Virus record (IMG/VR): IMGVR_UViG_3300021507_000010
Span: 1-22,623 of that record
DNA length: 22,623 nucleotides
Source of the DNA: a virus
Strand: one strand, 5' to 3'
Under the pieces are notes generated by a model, which was given only the letters and a program-made list of their open reading frames with translations, did no database searches and had not been told where the DNA came from. The stretch's first letter is position 1; every line of letters starts with the position of its first letter. A program made the translations under genes and the position numbers. Below, one piece after another: positions 1,609-21,160 of this stretch.

Positions 1609-2532
1609 ATGCAAATGACACTTGCGGAGTTCATCAAACGAACTCGTGACAAACTCGTCGCCGGCGTGGCAGAAGAAATCCTAACTACCAACCCATGGTT
1701 CCTGATTTGCCCATGGAATTCTTATGCCGGTTCTGGTATTACAACCAATCGCGAGAAGGTACTTGGTGATGCTGACTTCTACGGTCTTGGGGATACCATT
1801 ACCTCAAAGACTCCTTCTGAAGTAGAGCCTGTTCTTTTCCGGGGCACTCGAATCATTGGTGATGCTGAGCTTGATGGACTTCAAGTAGCAGAATCTGCCT
1901 CTGATATTAATGATCTTCGAGCTATGGAAGTAGCCTCTAAGTCCAAGTCTATTGGTCGTAAAATTCAGCTCGGAATGGCTACAGGAGATGGTGCCGATCC
2001 TAACTACAACTCCCTGCACTCCATGATTGATTCTGGACAGTATATAACAGGTGGTTCTGGTAACATTTTCGACTATCTGGATGCCCTTACTCAGAAGGTT
2101 CTTTCCAAAGATGGCCTTGTAGACTGGATTCAGCTCCCTGGGTCTCAGGCTCTTAAGATGCGTACTGCTTATCGTGCTCTTGGTGGCGTTCCTATGATGG
2201 AAGTCCAGTCCGGCGGTCGTACTTTCCAGGTTATGGAATTCAATGGTATTCCTTGCTTCACCAATAACTGGCTCTCTACCACTGAGACCCCAGGCGGTGG
2301 AGACTTGACTGGCGGTGATCTTTCCAGTATCTACGCTGGTAACTTTGATGATGGTTCCTACAAGACTGGCGTTGCTCTTATCCACCCTCAGGCTACTCCT
2401 GCAGGTATCTCAGTCGAAGCCATTGGAAAGATGGAAACAAAGGACCAGGAAATTTACCGTGTTAAAAGCTACAGCAACTTTGCTTCTTTCAATAAGATTG
2501 GTGTCGCTCGTTTGACCGATATGCCTGCATAA
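1609..2532 (+). CDS. Major capsid protein
   Basis: 307 residues, ATG 1609 with AAGGAG at 1596-1601; a second ATG two codons on (1615) is less well spaced. The size, the position after a scaffold and before connector genes, and the composition (mixed alpha/beta, several Gly-rich loops such as TPGGGDLTGGDL near 225-236) fit an HK97-fold coat protein of about 33 kDa. There is no long cleavable N-terminal delta domain; the separate scaffold gene probably replaces it. The N-terminus begins with a helix (LAEFIKRTRDKL). Codon use is less AT-driven than in neighbours (many GGT, CGT, CTT, few ATA or AGA), as expected of the most abundant virion protein. It is the only gene here with its own strong promoter and structured leader. 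Confidence 0.85.
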   Translation: MQMTLAEFIKRTRDKLVAGVAEEILTTNPWFLICPWNSYAGSGITTNREKVLGDADFYGLGDTITSKTPSEVEPVLFRGTRIIGDAELDGLQVAESASDINDLRAMEVASKSKSIGRKIQLGMATGDGADPNYNSLHSMIDSGQYITGGSGNIFDYLDALTQKVLSKDGLVDWIQLPGSQALKMRTAYRALGGVPMMEVQSGGRTFQVMEFNGIPCFTNNWLSTTETPGGGDLTGGDLSSIYAGNFDDGSYKTGVALIHPQATPAGISVEAIGKMETKDQEIYRVKSYSNFASFNKIGVARLTDMPA

Positions 2533-2611: not shown

Positions 2612-3007
2612 ATGGCAGATAATAAAACGCTTGGGTCGCCAAACGCACCTGAGCAGCCTGACACACTGGATACAGTTGATTACCAGAAACTTTTAGCAGA
2701 GCTTGAAATAAAGCTTGATGAAGTGACTGCTCAATTAAATGCAACCATCGTGGAAAAGGATGCATTGGAAGAGCGATACAATAAACTGAAACCAGCTGCA
2801 AAAGTAGTTAAAGAAAAAACAGCCACCTTGTACTGGCTCCATCCGGAATTGCCCGCAGACGGCAGTCGACCTACCGCATATGGATTTTACCTTACACCTT
2901 ATAAAAGCTATTACAAAGCAAGTATACCTGTGTCTCGTGTTGAGGATATGCTTACTCGTGATAAACCTTTTGTCAAAGAGCTTCCTAAGGAAGAAGAGGA
3001 CAAATAA
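2612..3007 (+). CDS. Hypothetical head-region protein with coiled coil
   Basis: 131 residues, ATG 2612 preceded by AAGGAT at 2600-2605. Residues about 1-22 are polar and Pro-rich. Residues 24-62 form a probable coiled coil (KLLAELEIKLDEVTAQL and on). The rest is a compact segment with aromatic residues (TLYWLHPELPADG, YGFYLTPYKSYY) and a very acidic/basic tail (KELPKEEEDK). The stop at 3005-3007 directly abuts the next ATG at 3008. Its place after the capsid gene suggests a virion or assembly component, but I do not recognise the family. An RNA- or DNA-binding role is not indicated. Confidence 0.6.
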   Translation: MADNKTLGSPNAPEQPDTLDTVDYQKLLAELEIKLDEVTAQLNATIVEKDALEERYNKLKPAAKVVKEKTATLYWLHPELPADGSRPTAYGFYLTPYKSYYKASIPVSRVEDMLTRDKPFVKELPKEEEDK

Positions 3008-3454
3008 ATGAGTGTTCATAATCTTCATCCGCAACCAACCTTGCATAACGATACGAGGACCCCAACAGTAGCCGACATTATGGATGCTTCCCGAATGAAG
3101 CTGACAATGGGTAAACAGTGGAATAAGGACGAGGAGGCCTTTCATATTGGCTTTGTCTCTCCTGCTACTCCTTGGAATCCTATGGGCTCAATATCTGAAA
3201 ATGCCAAAACGGTAGATGGAAAGCTACTTACTATTTTGCAGTGCTCGGCTCATACTGATAATATTGTGGCAGAGTTTGAACAGGTCAAGGTATTCGATGC
3301 TGACTCCATAACACTTATTCTCGGATTTGAGACCTTTACCCTGTTATGGTACGACGCTGATAAGCTTTACAGCACCAACGGTGTACCAGACAATCGTTTT
3401 AGCCGTCTGGATCATTTTGTAGGTGTATCAATAGAGCTGAACGTTACTCTATAA
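3008..3454 (+). CDS. Hypothetical head-region structural protein
   Basis: 148 residues, ATG 3008 immediately after the preceding stop; ribosomes probably re-initiate, with GGAAGAAGAGGA just upstream as Shine-Dalgarno-like sequence. The protein looks mostly beta (alternating hydrophobics in VFDADSITLILGFETFTLLW and VGVSIELNVTL), has no signal peptide or membrane segment, and has a polar N-terminus. Being between the capsid and connector genes, a decoration or head-stabilising role is possible but unproven. No family was recognised. Confidence 0.55.
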   Translation: MSVHNLHPQPTLHNDTRTPTVADIMDASRMKLTMGKQWNKDEEAFHIGFVSPATPWNPMGSISENAKTVDGKLLTILQCSAHTDNIVAEFEQVKVFDADSITLILGFETFTLLWYDADKLYSTNGVPDNRFSRLDHFVGVSIELNVTL

Positions 3455-3463
3455 AGGTTTCTT

Positions 3464-4099
3464 ATGCGACATAGAGCTTGTAAAACTTCTCGACGAAAAT
3501 TGGGGACTGGCACTGTAAAGGCAAGGCCGGTTTCCTGCCGTCGAAGGACAGGAATTGAAGGGCACATGACCGTATTTCAACCTATGGAAATGCATGTTGA
3601 TTGGTCCCTTTTTAGCGGAGTTGGCCCTACTCCCACTATATATGATGAAAGGAATAACACGTTTTCTACTACAGAGAACACAGCACCATCTTCCTTTTAC
3701 CCCCTTATGTATTCCGGCTATGGTCTTATAGATGATTGTCATATGGAAGTCATTATGGACTATGAAGGAGTTAGCAATACCTATGAGACCTATATGATGG
3801 CAAAGGGGTTAGATAACCTTAATTTCATTGGGGCTACTAGCTATAATGACAAAGTAATGCTATATGAGCGGCGTGCTGGTAACTGGATAAATCCGGGAGT
3901 TGAGACTCCTGTAACTGGAACCATCGGGCAGCTTGTTGAAATGGATGTAGTAGGTGACTAATTCACCCTGACTGTGAACGGGGTTGTAATAGGTTCTGCT
4001 ACTCATGGAATGACTGGCTCCGCTCACATGGGTATTTTACTACGAGGTATGCCTATTCATGGTCAGTTATGGCATGGAATGAATTTTACAGGACATTAA
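3464..4099 (+). pseudogene. ConA/LamG lectin-like head protein interrupted by an in-frame UAA
   Basis: ATG 3464 opens a frame of 165 codons to TAA at 3959-3961. The same frame then continues for 45 more codons to TAA at 4097-4099, four bases before the next ATG. The joined 211-position product has a basic, cysteine-bearing N-terminus (about 1-34), then a beta-rich domain that resembles concanavalin A-like/LamG folds. The best stretch crosses the stop: QLVEMDVVGD, stop, FTLTVNGVVIGSATHG, the usual strand-turn-strand with VNG. The short form would lack its last strands and probably not fold. One base change (for example TAA to GAA, AAA or CAA) restores it. Options are a recent nonsense mutation, a sequencing error, or programmed readthrough. 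The intact protein would be a sugar-binding head or decoration protein. Confidence 0.6.
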
Positions 4100-4103
4100 A
4101 GTC

Positions 4104-4262
4104 ATGTCTGGAGAAACTGTCGTAGACATAGATCATGACGGAAAGAGAGACGCTGTTATTGTAAAGGACTCTCAAGGGAACCCAATAGTCACCGTCGATT
4201 CCGATTCTGTTAATATCGATATTGATGGAGATGGAGACGCTGACATAATTATACTGAGGTAA
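4104..4262 (+). CDS. 52-aa microprotein with two calcium-loop-like repeats
   Basis: ATG 4104 to TAA 4260-4262, with AGGA at 4090-4093 upstream. The product begins MSGETVVDIDHDGKRDAV. It holds two copies of a D-x-D-x-D/x-G loop: DIDHDGKRDAVIV (8-20) and DIDGDGDADIIIL (39-51). Such loops resemble the calcium-binding D-x-D-G repeats of dockerin, FG-GAP/VCBS and thrombospondin type 3 modules. The protein is very acidic, has no signal peptide, and is almost entirely made of the two repeats. It sits between the lectin-like gene and a Cys-rich microprotein, so a calcium-dependent structural or head-decoration role is conceivable. This is inferred from the motifs alone. Confidence 0.55.
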   Translation: MSGETVVDIDHDGKRDAVIVKDSQGNPIVTVDSDSVNIDIDGDGDADIIILR

Positions 4263-6113: not shown

Positions 6114-7292
6114 ATGAGTAAGAACGCAACGGGCTCTCAGTCTTACGTAGCAGTACTTAAGCAAGACCCTACAAAACCACGTGAAATACCTGTTAATCCT
6201 GTTATGCAGATGGTCAACTTTGACGCTGACACATTGGCGATGGAACTTGATACAGGCACTTCTAACCATATTCGTCCAGATAGAATGACTGCAGACCTTA
6301 ATGTAAAAGGTTTTACAGTAGGTGGCGGATATTCCTTTGAATTCCAGTTTGAGAATAGTCTTGCTGATGAACTCCTACAGGCTTTCTTGTGGGCAAAGAA
6401 CTGGTCTACTCCTTGGGTAGATGTTGATGTTGCGGGAGCGGTTATTACAGCAGCCGGTGTTTGGGATATGTCCGGAGTTGTTTCGCCCCCTGAAATCACT
6501 TCAGGCCAAGGATTCAAACTTTCCGGGACTGGAAATAGTGGTGAAAATGACGGTTTTTATTACCTGACTGAAGTATCAACAGATACCTTTCAGATGGAAC
6601 CACCTCCCAAGGCTGATGAGACCTTGGTTGCAGGCGCTGTACTGACCGGTTCTATGATCCGAAATGGCTCTGTATATCAGCCGTTTTTCATTGAAAGAGG
6701 TCACCTTGATGTTAGCCAGTATTTCAAGTTTGTTGGAATGTCTGCTAACATTTTATCATTGGATTTCCCTGACCAGGATGACGTTACAGGTTCTTATGAT
6801 TTTGTAGGGCTTTTCAGAAAAATTGAACCAGCAGTTGAAGCTGGAGCTACATATACTCAGCCAACAAACAGCCCTGTATTTTCTACTTCTAACAATATGC
6901 CTCTTGCATTGATGGATGGAGTACCTCTTGAAAGCTGTTTTATCAAAGAGCTGGATATGGAGCTCAATAACAACGTGACTCCAAAAACAGGCATTGGCGT
7001 ATATGGGGCATGCGCCACCAATGCTCATCGTCTTAGCATATCTGGAAAGATTAGCCTTTACTTTGAAGATGAGACAGTACAAACTCAATTTGAACATGGC
7101 ACACCGCTTTCCATTGCATGGGTAGTTGAAGATGCTAACGGGCATGGCTATATGTTCAGGCTTCCAAGAATTAAATATGACACAGCAAAGAATAATGTTA
7201 CAAGCGTAGATGATGATGTTATGGATGATGCCACATATGTAGCAACAGCCGATCCAGATACTGCTTGCATGATTCAGATAGACAAATTCTAA
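6114..7292 (+). CDS. Major tail tube protein
   Basis: 392 residues, ATG 6114 with a strong AAGGAG site. The beginning (VMQMVNFDADTLAMELDTGTSNHIRPDR) and the repeated beta-strand pattern with GGGYSFEFQFEN fit the phage tail tube family (Phage_tail_3/TTP-like). Two related halves are likely: an N-terminal tube fold (about 20-215) and a C-terminal one (about 245-392, with SFCIKELDMELNN-like strands and RLSISGKISLYF). A middle segment (about 100-190) seems inserted and may form a surface domain. The length is greater than that of a simple tube protein (about 150-250 residues). The gene precedes the chaperone and tape measure, the conserved order for long tails. No sheath gene is present. Confidence 0.75.
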   Translation: MSKNATGSQSYVAVLKQDPTKPREIPVNPVMQMVNFDADTLAMELDTGTSNHIRPDRMTADLNVKGFTVGGGYSFEFQFENSLADELLQAFLWAKNWSTPWVDVDVAGAVITAAGVWDMSGVVSPPEITSGQGFKLSGTGNSGENDGFYYLTEVSTDTFQMEPPPKADETLVAGAVLTGSMIRNGSVYQPFFIERGHLDVSQYFKFVGMSANILSLDFPDQDDVTGSYDFVGLFRKIEPAVEAGATYTQPTNSPVFSTSNNMPLALMDGVPLESCFIKELDMELNNNVTPKTGIGVYGACATNAHRLSISGKISLYFEDETVQTQFEHGTPLSIAWVVEDANGHGYMFRLPRIKYDTAKNNVTSVDDDVMDDATYVATADPDTACMIQIDKF

Positions 7293-7703: not shown

Positions 7704-7963
7704 CAGAAGCCATGCTGTGGTACCGTAAGCATGGCCATAATGTTGATTGGTACTTGAGAGTAGCTGCTAAAGGGGCTCATGTCAAGGCATTAGACACTGA
7801 GCCTCACCTAACTCACTGTGAATTATTCTATTATAACATGCATACTGCATGCGGCAATGATATAAATAAGATAAAATCTTTTTGCGAGTTGCATCTAATG
7901 ACGTTTGATGAAATTATAGAATCCTTATATATACTACAGGACATATCCTTTAGGGTGAATTGA
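7700..7963 (+). CDS. T-like part of the G-T chaperone, made by -1 frameshift
   Basis: The frame continuing from G in the -1 register reads VAEAMLWYRKHGHNVDWY and on to TGA 7961-7963, adding 87 residues to give a G-T fusion of about 214. The -1 frame is closed by a TAA at 7670-7672 and the 0 frame by TAG at 7701-7703, so the shift must occur within about 30 nt. The candidate site is GAAAAAG (7694-7700), where the two lysine tRNAs can slip back one base, with a stop codon next. An ATG at 7712 is in the same frame but has no good ribosome site, so independent translation is less likely. The T part is helical with a few Cys and His (about four each). Lambda-type G/T frameshifting is the precedent. 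Confidence 0.65.
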   Translation, partial: VAEAMLWYRKHGHNVDWYLRVAAKGAHVKALDTEPHLTHCELFYYNMHTACGNDINKIKSFCELHLMTFDEIIESLYILQDISFRVN

Positions 7964-9708
7964 TGCCAGTAATTCAATTAGAATTAGATTCCAAAGGCGC
8001 GGTAAAGAGTTTACAGAAGTTCGATAAAGCTGCGGATGTAACTTCTAAAAAAGTTACTGCTAATTTCAAGAAAATACAAATAGCAGCTGCAGCAATGGCT
8101 GCTGCTGCTACTGCAGCTGTGCTTGCAATTGCTAAATCATCTTTGGATGCTGCAGCACATATGCAAGAGGCTAGAAACAAATACGCTCAAGTATTTGAAG
8201 GCATGACTGCTGAGTCCGACGCGTGGGTTAAAAATCTTCAAAATAATTATGGATTGTCTGAATATGCTGCAACAGAGTACCTATCTGCAACAAAAGCTGT
8301 CTTGGATGGAACCAAGATGCAAACTGCAGAAGCTGCTAAACTAGCTAATAAGCTTGTATTAGTTGGTAATGATTTAGCTTCATTTCATGATAAACCTGTT
8401 CAACAGGCAGTCAAAGCAATGACGTCTGCTTTAACCGGTGAATATGAAGCTATGAAGCAGTTTGGCATAGTAATTAAAAAGACTGAAATAATTCAAAGAG
8501 CTATGCTTGACAACAACCTTAAAAATAAGGATGCTGTCACTCAAGCAATGGAGGCACAAGCAGCATATGCCCTTATAGTTGAAAAATCTGGTAAAGCTAT
8601 AGGCGATACTATTAGAAGTCAGGATACATACACTTTTCAACTTAAACAGTCTAAAGCTTTAATAATGAATTTGAAAGTAGCAATAGGAGAGCATTTACTT
8701 CCTTATGCAACTAAGATTTTAACCATTACAAATAAGTGGATAAAAGCCAACCAAGGCCTAATAGATGTAAAGCTTGATAAGTTTTTTGAAAATGCAGGAC
8801 AAATGGTTCAGCAGTTTGCTAAAGCAGTCAGCTGGGCCTATGATAGAATGGTGGCATTCTCTAATTCTCTTGCATTATTTGAAGCAGTAGGAAGCGATCA
8901 ACTATCGTGGTTTGAGTATGCCACTATGAATGCCAAAGAAGCTGCAGAATGGTTGGACAAGCATCGCGAAGTCGTTGAAAAAGACACAGATGCAGTATCA
9001 AAAAATGCAGAAGAAAATGCAAAATTAAAAACTAGTCTTGACATTGTAAATGAGGCTGTAGAAAAATCATCTAAGTCTATGGATAGTTTGGCAGATAGCA
9101 CAGAAACTGCTGCAGATAAATCTAAAGATTTAGCTAGTTCGCTTAAAGATGAAGTAACGCCAGCTGTAAAGAGCTCGGTAATACCGTCAGAAAAAGAGTT
9201 AAAAGAAGCAGTAGAAGCTGTATCAAAAGCTGCTAAAAGCTCTGTAACTGAGCTAACTAAGCAAGCAGATGCAGCAAATAAAGTAGCAGCTGCTGCTAGG
9301 AGCATACAATCAGCTTCAAGAACTGCAGAAGGCACTTATAAAGCTTCAAAAGCGTGGTCAGGCGGGACTCATACTTTTAGTGGCAGTAGCTTTGAAAGTA
9401 CTCTTTCAAAAGAGGAGTTGGCGATTTATCGGTCTATGACTCCAGCAGGCAGAGGAAATGATTTTTATAAAACATATGGGAATCAACCTCAATTAGGCCC
9501 TAGTATGGGGGGTGGGAATTCTCACGATTATCTGGATAGGATTCAGTTACAGCATGACTCAGCGAGGGCTTATATAGAAAGGATGAGAAAGCAAGGTAGC
9601 TCTGCTGGCTGGTCTGGTCAAAACGTTTTTAATTTTAACCAGCAGGTATCGCGCTCGGACATAATGAATATTACAAATTCTCAACAGACTAATGGAGCTC
9701 GTGCATGA
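7963..9708 (+). CDS. Tape measure protein
   Basis: 581 residues from ATG 7963 (AGGGTGA at 7952-7958); a TTG at 7960 is also open but less likely. The N-terminus (VIQLELDSKGAVKSLQKFD), an alanine-rich hydrophobic segment at about 40-60, and the conserved SLDAAAHMQEARNKYAQVF and YEAMKQFGI regions are typical of tape measure proteins. The remainder is long and helical with many Ala, Lys and Glu, including a Lys/Ala/Ser-rich stretch near 360-470. The C-terminus (about 510-581) is Gly/Asn-rich. The length would give a tail of roughly 85-90 nm, using the usual 0.15 nm per residue. No lysozyme or peptidase domain is visible. Its stop overlaps the next start (ATGA). Confidence 0.9.
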   Translation: MPVIQLELDSKGAVKSLQKFDKAADVTSKKVTANFKKIQIAAAAMAAAATAAVLAIAKSSLDAAAHMQEARNKYAQVFEGMTAESDAWVKNLQNNYGLSEYAATEYLSATKAVLDGTKMQTAEAAKLANKLVLVGNDLASFHDKPVQQAVKAMTSALTGEYEAMKQFGIVIKKTEIIQRAMLDNNLKNKDAVTQAMEAQAAYALIVEKSGKAIGDTIRSQDTYTFQLKQSKALIMNLKVAIGEHLLPYATKILTITNKWIKANQGLIDVKLDKFFENAGQMVQQFAKAVSWAYDRMVAFSNSLALFEAVGSDQLSWFEYATMNAKEAAEWLDKHREVVEKDTDAVSKNAEENAKLKTSLDIVNEAVEKSSKSMDSLADSTETAADKSKDLASSLKDEVTPAVKSSVIPSEKELKEAVEAVSKAAKSSVTELTKQADAANKVAAAARSIQSASRTAEGTYKASKAWSGGTHTFSGSSFESTLSKEELAIYRSMTPAGRGNDFYKTYGNQPQLGPSMGGGNSHDYLDRIQLQHDSARAYIERMRKQGSSAGWSGQNVFNFNQQVSRSDIMNITNSQQTNGARA

Positions 9709-13036: not shown

Positions 13037-15735
13037 TGGCTATTTCAAAAACTCCTAATCTTAATCTTAATGTCCCCGACTACCAGACGCCGGATTGGAA
13101 TGTTCCTGTCAATGAAAACTGGAATATTCTAGATAGCTCCCATTGCACCTGTCCTCAGCTGGCGTTGAGGTTGTTGGATGTGGAAGTTGTAGATGTCTTT
13201 ATATACGATACTACTAAGGACTCCGATGGTGGAGCATGGGTGGATAATTGCTCTAGAACATCTTGGTGCAACGAACCCTTAGACACAGCTATACGTGGGA
13301 AGACACGAGGTTTTCCTAGAATAGTCGCTATCGTCTTGGAGGCCACTAAGCTTACTATTTACGATCTTACTGATCCAACTGTCCCAATGTGGATGGTCTT
13401 CTTAAGAGTGGCAGGCAGTCTAGCCGATGGCGCAATATGGGCGGATGCAGTCACCGGGCGCTGTGTTACGGCTTTTGATTCTACTATTTGTATCGGAACG
13501 GATGACGTTTCCTCTAGAGGTGGAGTTAGAGCTATTTGCTTTAGCGAGGATACTGCTGAATTGTACGGTGATAGTAGTTATAGACATTACAATGGAGGTA
13601 TAGCAGAGAGGAATGTTGCTGGTACAGGTTATCTATCCGGTGCGTATACTGCTGTAGAGAGACATGCTAATGACATAGCTATGATAAAAGGTGAAGTGTT
13701 GAGTAGACCAATTATCGCTATAGCCACACTAAGTTCTGTGTACATTATAAACAGTCCTACAGGGGTTATTCATGGATCTGGTACTGGATCCTATGGAAAA
13801 GTATCCTTTTTTAACGGCCGACTAACCGCTGCTAGATCAAATGTACCTCGTATACACGTATCATCTGATTTTTTGACGGATAATTTTCCTTATATTACCT
13901 ACAGAGAAATCTCTACTCCTGCTATTCTCCCTCAAATATGTAGCGGTCTAGTAGGCACCCATGGAGGAGGGCATAACGGATTAGTCCTGTTGGAGGAAAA
14001 TATAGAAGCGCCTGAAAAGGGTATGGTTAATTATATAACGGGCACTTATCAATCAGGGTGGATGCAGGGCGATATAAAAGGAGCATGGCTTGCTGATACT
14101 GAGGAAGGTGCTGTTTATGAAAACCATATTGTTGATCCCGGTTTTGACGATGCAGGTGCATGGAGTACAAACGCAGCTTATATTGTTGATGGAGGAAAAC
14201 TTACAGGGGTACCCGGAAACTCTGCCAATGCAAGCAACATTGGCCTTATTCTTAAACTGACTGTTGGTAAGAGCTACACTGCGACCTTCACAATAGATAG
14301 TATTAGTGTTAATAGAGTGTTTTTTAATCAGGTCGGAGGACCTAATGGAATCGTTAGAACGGCTCCAGGGACATATACAGAAACCTTTGTGTTGGATGCT
14401 TCTACAACGAATGTCGGAATATACATTAACAACACTGATGCAGTCATTGACAATTTCACGATCATAGAAATGGTCGCAGATCGTTCAGTAAATGAAAACC
14501 CTCTTGAAAATATAGGGACTACTGTTACCCGTACTCCGGTTAATACAAATGCAGAGCTTATGGGGTACACTGGCTTCACTCAAAATGATTATCTCATTCA
14601 GGCTCACAACAATGATTTAGATTTTGGAACAGATGATTTTTACGCTATGGCATGGGTAAAGACCAATACTACAGGAGATAACTATATTATTTCGCTTGAT
14701 GAAGCAACCACGAATAACGCTAATAGGTTATTTATTTATTGTGCAAATGGGATTCCAACTATAATGATTGGAACCATTCTTGTTCAGGCCACAACTTTAA
14801 TTGATAATGATAAATGGAGTTTTATAGTAGGCTATCGAAAAGATGGGATTTTACATATTTCTGTAAATGGGGAAGAAGAGGGAAGTATTGCGAACTCTAC
14901 AGATATTACAAATTCAGCTCATGAATTAGTAGTAGGTTCAAGAAGAGATGAAAATACACCTTGGCTTGGTTCTTTATCCCTTGTACGAATGGGGAAGGGG
15001 GCTCCTTCAGATAATCAACTAAAGAAAATTTACGAGGATGAAAAAAGTTTATTTGATGCAGGAGCCCAATGTACTCTTCAATCTACTTCTGGTCATATTA
15101 CTTGTATGGAAGGCTGTGAAGGAGAACTTTATCTAGGAACAACAGCTGGATCGTGTGTTCTTGATAATTTGGTAAGCTCCTCGTTAACAGTATGCGAGAA
15201 AGATGTAGATGGAAACATCGTTTGTAGTGATGATAAGCTTTTCAAAGCTATTTCTGCTAATAAAGGTGCCGTACTTAGTGGGTTGAGTGACGGGGCTGTA
15301 CTAGACTCTCCAGAGTTCAATACTAAGGTAGAGGTGCTAGAGCTTCTTGATAGAGTAGATACTATCGAAACCGCTATGTCCTACAACTTCGAGAAAGTAA
15401 AAAATCTACTGGATATCAGCGATACCTATCAACCTATCGTTTCATTAGCTACAGATAGACTATGTGAAGGGATATACGAAATAAAAGCCTCTGTGACTTA
15501 CAGCTATGATAGGACTACCAAGTCATCGTTTTTTAGATGGAGGCTAGATGGCGGTGCATGGGAAGAGATAAAAAAAGAGGCTAAGGATATTACAGATATT
15601 ACAGTCTCGTCTTTTTTCTATCCCACACAATTAAGTAGAGGGGTTCATGTTTTAGAAATTGAAGGGAGAAAGGAAAGCGGTGGTGGAACCTTCGATATAT
15701 TATTTGCTAATGCTATTATTGAGAGGAAGAAATGA
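13036..15735 (+). CDS. Large receptor-binding protein with propeller-, CBM- and LamG-like parts
   Basis: 899 residues. The N-terminus (TPNLNLNVPDYQTPDWNVP, then VNENWNILD) is the common attachment motif of phage tail appendages. Residues about 40-345 look like a repeat-strand domain, possibly a beta-propeller, with the phage motif SGWMQGDIKGAWL near 339-351. Residues about 361-476 resemble a carbohydrate-binding jelly roll (DPGFDDAGAW, then ITGTYQ-type strands). About 508-673 is a LamG/ConA-like domain (DDFYAMAWVK, HISVNGEEEGS, LVVGSRRDE). About 764-799 is helical, and a final beta domain closes it. It has many Cys. It probably binds cell-surface glycans; two sugar-binding modules suggest avidity or two receptors. 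No catalytic residues are evident, so a depolymerase is not claimed. Confidence 0.7.
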   Translation: MAISKTPNLNLNVPDYQTPDWNVPVNENWNILDSSHCTCPQLALRLLDVEVVDVFIYDTTKDSDGGAWVDNCSRTSWCNEPLDTAIRGKTRGFPRIVAIVLEATKLTIYDLTDPTVPMWMVFLRVAGSLADGAIWADAVTGRCVTAFDSTICIGTDDVSSRGGVRAICFSEDTAELYGDSSYRHYNGGIAERNVAGTGYLSGAYTAVERHANDIAMIKGEVLSRPIIAIATLSSVYIINSPTGVIHGSGTGSYGKVSFFNGRLTAARSNVPRIHVSSDFLTDNFPYITYREISTPAILPQICSGLVGTHGGGHNGLVLLEENIEAPEKGMVNYITGTYQSGWMQGDIKGAWLADTEEGAVYENHIVDPGFDDAGAWSTNAAYIVDGGKLTGVPGNSANASNIGLILKLTVGKSYTATFTIDSISVNRVFFNQVGGPNGIVRTAPGTYTETFVLDASTTNVGIYINNTDAVIDNFTIIEMVADRSVNENPLENIGTTVTRTPVNTNAELMGYTGFTQNDYLIQAHNNDLDFGTDDFYAMAWVKTNTTGDNYIISLDEATTNNANRLFIYCANGIPTIMIGTILVQATTLIDNDKWSFIVGYRKDGILHISVNGEEEGSIANSTDITNSAHELVVGSRRDENTPWLGSLSLVRMGKGAPSDNQLKKIYEDEKSLFDAGAQCTLQSTSGHITCMEGCEGELYLGTTAGSCVLDNLVSSSLTVCEKDVDGNIVCSDDKLFKAISANKGAVLSGLSDGAVLDSPEFNTKVEVLELLDRVDTIETAMSYNFEKVKNLLDISDTYQPIVSLATDRLCEGIYEIKASVTYSYDRTTKSSFFRWRLDGGAWEEIKKEAKDITDITVSSFFYPTQLSRGVHVLEIEGRKESGGGTFDILFANAIIERKK

Positions 15736-16262
15736 AAAAGACTATTGTTTGTATTGTTGTCCTATTGTTTTTATCGGCATGCGCTCATAATGAGTATAAC
15801 GCTGCAGTCGCTAAGTATGAGCAGACAAGAATGAAGGCATATGGTGACGCTATGGCGAAACAGTCTACTGAGACTGGTAGAATGGCCGTAGCAATGGCGT
15901 TTGCCTATGGCATGGGTAAAGGCAAGTTCCAGCGAGAAGATACCGTTTTGGACTATGCTACGGCGTTTTTACCCTATGCTAATTTACTTCTCCCTCTTGC
16001 TTATGGTGGTGGATACTTTAAATATGGGAATGGAGATATTGAAGCAGGCGGAGATATCTACATGAATTCGGCTCGGGCTGATAGTCGATACTTGAATAAT
16101 TCAGTGCTGCAGGAATACGGTATCAGTGGTCAGGGTAATTGGGTGGGCTCGAATGAGCCTATGAATATATCAGCACATGAAGGGTCTGCAGCGGGTGCCG
16201 GAGATGGATCAACGGCAGATGGTATGCCAAGTGAGGTGGAGGCTGAGGAGCTTCTTCCTTAA
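15732..16262 (+). CDS. Phage-encoded lipoprotein
   Basis: 176 residues, ATG 15732 overlapping the previous stop, with GAGAGGAAG upstream. The start is a clear lipoprotein signal (MKKTIVCIVVLLFLSAC): basic start, hydrophobic core and lipobox LSAC with Cys17. The residue after Cys is Ala, which by the E. coli rule favours outer-membrane sorting. The mature part has a helical Ala/Met-rich segment (VAMAFAYGMGKG), a possible amphipathic or hydrophobic patch (LPYANLLLPLAYGGGYFKYG, about 76-95) and an acidic Gly/Ser-rich C-terminus. It comes after the receptor-binding gene and before the collagen/YadA-like gene. It might be a superinfection exclusion or host-surface-altering moron. Rz1-type spanin is less likely because it is long and no Rz is nearby. 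Confidence 0.7.
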   Translation: MKKTIVCIVVLLFLSACAHNEYNAAVAKYEQTRMKAYGDAMAKQSTETGRMAVAMAFAYGMGKGKFQREDTVLDYATAFLPYANLLLPLAYGGGYFKYGNGDIEAGGDIYMNSARADSRYLNNSVLQEYGISGQGNWVGSNEPMNISAHEGSAAGAGDGSTADGMPSEVEAEELLP

Positions 16263-16280: not shown

Positions 16281-16846
16281 ATGAAACATTTTATTTTAAT
16301 TGCAGTCTTTATTACTTCTACAATGTATCTTGGTGGTACTGTGTTGGCTTGTCAAGGATGTGACTGCCCTCCTGGCCCTCAAGGAGACAAGGGGGACAAA
16401 GGTGATAGAGGAGAAAGAGGGTATACCGGTAAACGCGGTAGAACTGGCCTTATTGGTCTTTCGGGTCTTAGAGGTACTCATGGTATTAATGGCGTTAATG
16501 GCGTTAATGGCTCCGTAGGTGCTAAAGGGGACACAGGATTTCGTGGCCCACAAGGTAACACTGGTGCTACAGGTGCTACAGGCGCTACAGGAAAAGCTGG
16601 CAGAGATAGTGATGATGCCTATGGGGCAGTTGCCGGGGCAATGGCTATGGGTATGCTGGAGGACCCCTATGTTGGTGGCATGGTTGTCACTGGTGGTACT
16701 TCTTATTATCATGACTCAGGAGCGATAGCTATAGGATTTGGAAAGTCCTTCAATGATTCGTGGTCTGCTAAGGCTAGTGCTTTGCTGCCACTTCGGATGA
16801 TGGCGAAGATGTAGGAGTAGCAGCATCTGCAGCATACCACTTCTAA
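16281..16846 (+). pseudogene. Collagen-like YadA-anchor protein with -1 frame break at its last strand
   Basis: ATG 16281 with a perfect AAGGAGATATC leader. The zero frame runs to TAG 16812-16814 (177 residues). Parts: a signal peptide (about 1-23, ending VLA before CQGCDC), 26 Gly-X-Y triplets (32-109, including GAT GAT GAT), then a YadA-like anchor (about 111 onwards, with MVVTGGTSYYHDSGAIAIGF). The zero frame ends in LLPLRMMAKM, unlike a barrel. In the -1 frame from 16781 the sequence reads FAATSDDGEDVGVAASAAYHF and stops at 16844-16846, ending in Phe as outer-membrane barrels do. That frame has a TAG at 16775, so the break lies at about 16778-16811. One extra T in the TTT at 16781-16783 would restore one frame. 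Options are a mutation, a homopolymer error or frameshifting. The predicted protein is a trimeric autotransporter-type surface adhesin. Confidence 0.65.
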
Positions 16847-16849
16847 AAT

Positions 16850-17332
16850 CTAAAGGTGTTGCGCCTCCCATGTGCCTATAGGCGCAACATCTGCTATTGA
16901 TTTTCTTTTCGACATAGTTTTATCTGGCTCTTGTTTCTTCATCGTTGTAACTAGTTCCATTGTCCCTTTAGTTTTATACTTCACCACAGGCTTGAATAAT
17001 TTATCATAGTCTCCATCTAAGCACCATCTTTCAAGTCGCTTTGTTCCAGATGTTTGCATACATCCAGACAACTTCATTACAATACTCATCCACATTGGAC
17101 AATGTTTATGATAGTATGTTTGCTCTTTTGATGATATACCATTCTCAGCTTTAACAATAAAATCATTTATTTTGTACTTTACATCTGGCCTATGTATAAT
17201 GATTCTAGCAGTAGTCATACTTATATTGCATCTCTTAGCTAGACTCTCCATATTGTAAAGCCTGCCTCCAACATACACTTGGTAGGCTCTTCCTTTTTTA
17301 CGAACTATAACATTATACATTTTAGGTTTCAT
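16850..17332 (-). CDS. Hypothetical protein with HTH-like segment, last gene of the leftward operon
   Basis: 160 residues. ATG 17332-17330 overlaps the ligase stop (ATGA), so translation is coupled. Near residues 29-46 a segment (SLAKRCNISMTTARIIIH) has the pattern of a helix-turn-helix that would recognise DNA. The middle contains a Cys/His cluster (HKHCPMWM, later SGCM and RWC) that might bind zinc. The C-terminal part is basic (for example KKQEPDKTMSKRKS) with no hydrophobic segment. It is the most downstream gene of the replication operon and may be a phage regulator or endonuclease-associated protein. I do not recognise the family. Confidence 0.5.
   Translation of the reverse strand: MKPKMYNVIVRKKGRAYQVYVGGRLYNMESLAKRCNISMTTARIIIHRPDVKYKINDFIVKAENGISSKEQTYYHKHCPMWMSIVMKLSGCMQTSGTKRLERWCLDGDYDKLFKPVVKYKTKGTMELVTTMKKQEPDKTMSKRKSIADVAPIGTWEAQHL
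16857..16889 (-). terminator. Possible terminator between the converging operons
   Basis: TGTTGCGCC (16857-16865) and GGCGCAACA (16881-16889) form a 9-bp perfect stem with a 15-nt loop. Read on the - strand it is followed by CCTTTAGATTTTAG, which is U-rich and overlaps the stop of the leftmost gene. On the + strand the T-rich stretch comes later and is broken. It could end the leftward operon and perhaps weaken rightward transcription. The run of T is imperfect, so this is tentative. Confidence 0.35.
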
Positions 17333-20242: not shown

Positions 20243-20726
20243 GATCTAGTAACTTCCTTTGCAAGTTTCGTACTCTTGCTTTTGAATTTGTATACACTCT
20301 TTCCATATATCCTTTGTTTCCAAGGTCAACTTCCACTTTGGAGAATTGAATACATTGAATAGCATCAGCCAAACGAACAATACGAGACTCTATTGATTCG
20401 TTTTTATCATATTCAAGAACTCCATGCCTACAAGCTTTTGGAAGAGTTTCTGCAACTTCCCTTTCGCATTCTGCAAAAGCTTTAGCAATAGCTGGGTATT
20501 TCTTTTTTATAACCCATGGAGCATCATTGAGCTCTATTTCTGGCATATCATGTGATATAGCTATTATAACAGCTTCTCCAAGATCAAACTTATATACTTC
20601 GTAAAGCTCCATTACTATAGCTGCTACAAAGAATCCATGCTCGGCTACAGATTCTTCATGTATCTTTGGCACATTGCTATATCGTTTTATATATGCCAAT
20701 CTGTATATATCTTCCAGAAAAGTCAT
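20226..20726 (-). CDS. HD-domain 5'-nucleotidase / dNTP triphosphohydrolase (YfbR- or DatZ-like)
   Basis: 166 residues; ATG 20726-20724 overlaps the preceding stop as ATGA. HD residues: His30 (ESVAEHGF), His59-Asp60 (ISHDMPE) and Asp121 (RLADAIQC), the metal site expected for YfbR-type enzymes. The HDMPE and NDAPW stretches (59-71) are characteristic of the group, which removes phosphate from deoxynucleoside monophosphates or, in DatZ, hydrolyses dATP to dA. The shorter length and the phage context leave both possible. It lies with a deoxyribosyltransferase and polymerase and is probably used to shape the dNTP pool. PurZ is not visible in this window, so a 2-aminoadenine pathway cannot be claimed. 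Confidence 0.8.
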   Translation of the reverse strand: MTFLEDIYRLAYIKRYSNVPKIHEESVAEHGFFVAAIVMELYEVYKFDLGEAVIIAISHDMPEIELNDAPWVIKKKYPAIAKAFAECEREVAETLPKACRHGVLEYDKNESIESRIVRLADAIQCIQFSKVEVDLGNKGYMERVYTNSKARVRNLQRKLLDHVRKL

Positions 20727-21160
20727 TCAATATCTCCCGTATATTGTATATAATCAATTGCGCCATTTACTGAAGCAACTGTTAAATATGCTTTAAGGTC
20801 ATCCAATGTAGTAAATACTGCAGTGGCGGATTCTGCAAGCATTAAATTAAATGCTCCTGAACCACCTGGCCAGTAGTATACAATTGGCATTCCTGTAGCA
20901 AATGCAACACCGCATTCAAAAAGTGTTCCCATATCTTTGCCTACTGTGGATGCAAGTATAAAATTAGCATTACACATTTCTTTGATATTAGTAGCAAACA
21001 CTTCTGTTTTGTTTGATTCACCTGGTATAAATAGCAAATCATCTTTAGGACTGTACACGCCCATTTCAGCTGCAGATAATGCTTGTAGCATTTCTACTCT
21101 GGCTTTCTCTTGCTCTTTAGTGAACCATCCACTTGCTAGATATGCTTTCAATATTTCCAC
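20723..21160 (-). CDS. Nucleoside 2-deoxyribosyltransferase
   Basis: 145 residues with a GTG start (21160-21158) overlapping the polymerase end by 13 nt; AAAAAAGAG precedes it. The enzyme moves deoxyribose between bases (salvage) through a covalent sugar intermediate. Marks: YLASGWF (7-13), SPKDDLL (37-43), DMGTLFECGVAFA (76-88) with the likely nucleophile Glu82 and Asp76, then a GMPIVYYWPG loop (90-99) and FNLMLAES. The layout is that of the Ndt family. It could redirect host deoxynucleosides to bases the phage needs, or be part of base replacement. Tight coupling with the next gene (HD enzyme) supports a joint role. Confidence 0.85.
   Translation of the reverse strand: MEILKAYLASGWFTKEQEKARVEMLQALSAAEMGVYSPKDDLLFIPGESNKTEVFATNIKEMCNANFILASTVGKDMGTLFECGVAFATGMPIVYYWPGGSGAFNLMLAESATAVFTTLDDLKAYLTVASVNGAIDYIQYTGDIE

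Follow-up and report, generated by a model that had tools for sequence, protein, structure and literature searches.

A collagen-stalk, YadA-anchor gene of a metagenomic phage, probably broken in one record by the loss of a single base

Introduction

YadA homologues have already been described in virulent phages (PMC3728262), and in the cyanophage S-SZBM1 a YadA domain-containing protein was detected when the structural proteome was analysed by mass spectrometry (PMC9146016). A search with only the anchor region found further YadA proteins in isolated phages, each with a PF03895-like YadA anchor: phi32_119 of phiEco32, annotated as a 'tail protein/agglutinating adhesin', gp117 of Proteus phage Pm5461, gp20 of Pantoea phage AAM22 and gp273 of Erwinia phage pEa_SNUABM_5. 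Phage proteins with this anchor are thus already published and are annotated in several isolated phages; the present gene is one more, in a broken copy.

The gene lies in a 22.6 kb virus record from IMG/VR, a fragment of a phage genome, which is referred to in its entirety as the window. Its product has in common with the four proteins from isolated phages an N-terminal signal-like segment, a C-terminal helix with YadA-type strands and its location in a phage; identity across the anchor is about 30–36%, and several of these matches are weak on their own. Three of the four proteins (those of phiEco32, Pm5461 and AAM22) end in YEW, YGW and IGW, respectively, which fits the aromatic end of the anchor, and that of pEa_SNUABM_5 ends in IGN. 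What distinguishes the window, where the copy is broken, and two relatives, IMGVR_UViG_3300033146_004697 (L002) and IMGVR_UViG_3300021513_000031 (L071), is a collagen stalk next to the anchor. The S-SZBM1 protein is also phage-borne and has a YadA domain but is longer (444 amino acids); it is likened to the present protein by description. Compared with YadA of Yersinia, the protein has a collagen-like stalk in place of a coiled coil, lacks an adhesin head and is carried by a phage.

Results

Gene neighbourhood and layout

The plus strand of the window carries phage head and tail genes (Table 1), and the collagen–YadA gene is the last gene on this strand. The genes on the minus strand belong to nucleotide and DNA metabolism: a DNA ligase, a dCMP deaminase, ThyX and a YfbR-like nucleotidase, together with a nucleoside deoxyribosyltransferase and DNA polymerase A. 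The start of the mature part of the collagen–YadA protein, after the predicted cleavage site, is conserved in L071.

Table 1. Features of the window, with positions numbered from its first base
Feature	Position	Strand	Remarks
Major head protein	1609–2532	+	phrog_212
Tail-tube protein	6114–7292	+	
Tape-measure-like protein	7960–9708	+	
Putative lipoprotein, upstream neighbour	15732–16262	+	LSAC lipobox; without family match
Collagen–YadA ORF as found	16281–16814	+	177 amino acids: signal peptide, collagen repeats, truncated YadA-type anchor, out-of-frame tail LLPLRMMAKM
Probable signal peptide (MKHFILIAVFITSTMYLGGTVLA), then conserved C..CDCPPGPQG	16281–16349	+	From reading of the sequence
Collagen-like Gly-X-Y repeats	16368–16616	+	PF01391
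In-frame portion of YadA_anchor	16686–16781	+	PF03895 positions 11–42 of 60
T-run, break in frame	16781–16783	+	One base fewer than in L002
Rest of anchor	16781–16846	+	−1 frame; last part of strand 3 plus the whole of strand 4, ...FAATSDDGEDVGVAASAAYHF, stop
Convergent gene	16850–17332	−	ORF, function without assignment; 3 bases between its stop and the −1-frame stop

The frame break

In the zero frame the ORF terminates in ...SAKASALLPLRMMAKM, the LLPLRMMAKM end that a sequence-only reading of the window had given for it. The −1 frame has no stop from 16778 until that at 16844–16846 and translates as CFAATSDDGEDVGVAASAAYHF; it encodes the remaining part of PF03895, ending in DDGEDVGVAASAAYHF. 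As the convergent ORF ends at 16850, exactly three bases lie between the two stops, in agreement with the tight spacing that had been noted from the letters.

Protein searches found 64 viral loci, of which L002 is the only close relative. Across 6482 bases it has 98.6% identity to the window, interrupted by two gaps: an in-frame 9-nucleotide collagen unit (three extra residues in L002) and one base of the T-run. The L002 gene is one unbroken ORF of 191 amino acids that ends in KASAFAATSDDGEDVGVAASAAYHF and includes the same peptide as the −1 frame of the window. The proposal that the last YadA-like strand, with its final Phe, lies in the −1 frame is thereby borne out, and on sequence grounds the match of this peptide to the single ORF of L002 is beyond chance. 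One T has been lost from the window copy, so the last barrel strand is out of frame. To the right of the T-run 157 bases are identical between the window and L002; there has thus been no decay after the break, which is either recent or not real. To the left of it the gene is mildly conserved, with a pN/pS of about 0.5 (six non-synonymous and four synonymous differences).

With the major capsid protein as query, eleven related phage contigs were retrieved, among them L071, which has a homologue of the whole gene: an intact protein of 173 amino acids with 47% identity and the C-terminus SLSYHFK. Identity in the anchor region is 51%, and the homologous ending is in frame. At the break point L071 has the codons GCT TTT, as does L002, so the deletion of a T proposed by the sequence-only reading has the support of two homologues. 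Membership of PF03895 was judged by the Pfam gathering cut-off of 22.7 bits across the domain: L002 (positions 10–60 of 60, 25.4 bits) and L071 (11–60 of 60, 30.2 bits) are above it, and the zero frame of the window (20.5 bits) is below it because of the frame break. L002 and the −1 frame of the window (YHF), like L071 (YHFK), have an aromatic residue at the C-terminus or beside it; the zero frame of the window, ending ...MAKM, is without one. Alignment to homologues, which had been suggested as a check, thus gave two in-frame genes and no instance of the zero-frame ending. The same reading had held that reads with four T here would mean an assembly error; four T are found in the relatives' records, which concerns the relatives and not the reads of the window. 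We also considered L002 as the faulty copy, which is opposed by the in-frame homologue in L071.

The anchor fold

The membrane anchor of Yersinia YadA (PDB entry 2lme) was matched, with an E value of 0.002, by a profile built from both phage anchors; the match covers the helix and strands one to three. The predicted model of the anchor, which is of low confidence (mean pLDDT of 52), has a helix (H3–16) and four strands, the fourth of which (residues 68–79) lies entirely past the break. A Foldseek search with this model, which is too weak for a fold search, gave nothing significant.

Distribution and position of the gene

The searches turned up just two homologues of this architecture, a small number that tempers the reading favoured below. 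The other 63 viral records that match the collagen repeats lack a YadA anchor at an E value of 0.001 and so do not represent homologues of the gene as a whole. Isolated phages had no nucleotide match to the region, and tblastn with the L002 protein at 1e-5 was likewise negative. The L071 protein retrieved 634 phage records; the matches listed were mostly to collagen repeats. Searches with the neighbouring genes returned only the same relative or nothing, and no relative emerged from bacterial genomes scanned with the anchor profile.

In L071 the gene (2844–3365) sits between head–tail connector genes, while the window copy follows the tail genes; from these different sites the gene has moved within the late cluster. 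In this it resembles a mobile accessory gene.

Other differences between the window and its relatives

The L002 copy of the putative lipoprotein gene stops a few codons sooner. The nucleoside deoxyribosyltransferase-like gene at 20723–21160 has about 11 non-synonymous differences and one synonymous difference from L002 (pN/pS of about 3), and the genes adjoining it are conserved. The protein encoded at 3008–3454 has 79% identity to its counterpart in a further record, L070, where its neighbours have 95–99%, and 85% identity to that in L071; this uneven identity suggests recombination.

A second broken gene lies at 3464–4262 in the window, and its homologue in L071 is an intact ORF of 231 amino acids (1946–2641). 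At 3959–3961 the window has TAA where both L070 and L071 have CAA, and at 4096–4097 it has one T more than L071. A scan for this extra-T site matched L071 only.

Discussion

Origin of the break

The reading that we favour, with a probability of about 0.94, is that a normal gene has been broken in this record by the loss of one base, whether by mutation or by an error of sequencing or assembly. The intact phage gene would encode an outer-membrane protein that is exported and probably forms trimers; in it a Sec signal peptide is followed by the collagen-like stalk and the YadA-type C-terminal anchor. Loss of a T from the T-run gives a product that lacks the final strand of the barrel as well as the aromatic residue at its end, and this truncated product would be expected to fail in outer-membrane insertion. 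An intact gene in both the near-identical L002 and the distant L071 argues for an ordinary mutation or an assembly error, not a regulated frameshift.

The loss would be either a recent mutation private to this phage or a sequencing or assembly error, and we consider the two origins about equally likely. That the error is the whole explanation, the gene of the phage itself being intact, comes out slightly below even odds. The lost base falls in a homopolymer, there is no drift beyond it, and the second broken gene contains another single-T indel that was not seen in another record; two such indels suggest sequence error. The change from CAA to TAA in that same gene, however, is a nonsense substitution, which is atypical of homopolymer error, and the remaining homopolymer runs match L002: the stretch shared with L002 has 112 runs of length 4 or more, none with a change in length, which gives no sign of an assembly that is error-prone in general.

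Phase variation had been raised as a possibility in the sequence-only reading, along with programmed frameshifting, and neither found support. In the former case the T-run would toggle between three and four bases, turning the protein on or off by switching the last strand in and out of frame, so that some phage populations would have the outer-membrane form and others would not. We regard this as very improbable, although two close phages, the window and L002, do differ exactly at the T-run. Known contingency tracts are longer than the 3–4 bases present here, and the gene contains a single homopolymer of at least five bases, GGGGG at 16391. The long form is present in both homologues, and a scan with a pattern of variable length matched only the L002 contig, giving no further record of the short form. 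Programmed −1 ribosomal frameshifting, yielding two products with and without the last strand, is less probable still: the −1 frame is open over the overlap (16778–16814) and TTG could re-pair to TTT at two of three positions, but the entire ORF is without an X XXY YYZ slippery heptamer, and in L002 and L071 a single frame, with no shift, suffices for the full anchor, so the arrangement of the frames is not conserved. The lack of such a heptamer and of a long run, with a scan matching only L002, makes both mechanisms unlikely.

Function of the intact gene and its meaning

The sequence features of the intact protein suggest an exported trimer, made late in infection, whose anchor would form a barrel of 12 strands in the Gram-negative host's outer membrane, leaving the stalk outside the cell. 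The signal peptide in the window gene points to export rather than to a place in the virion. Its role could be to alter the host surface, for example by blocking superinfecting phages or by clumping. A role in the virion may also be considered by analogy with S-SZBM1, in which the YadA-domain protein belongs to the structural proteome (PMC9146016).

The main lesson is that an apparent recoding site in one metagenomic phage contig is explained by comparison with a close and a distant relative. The intact gene is a modest addition to the phage-encoded YadA-anchor proteins, one that couples a collagen stalk with an outer-membrane anchor.
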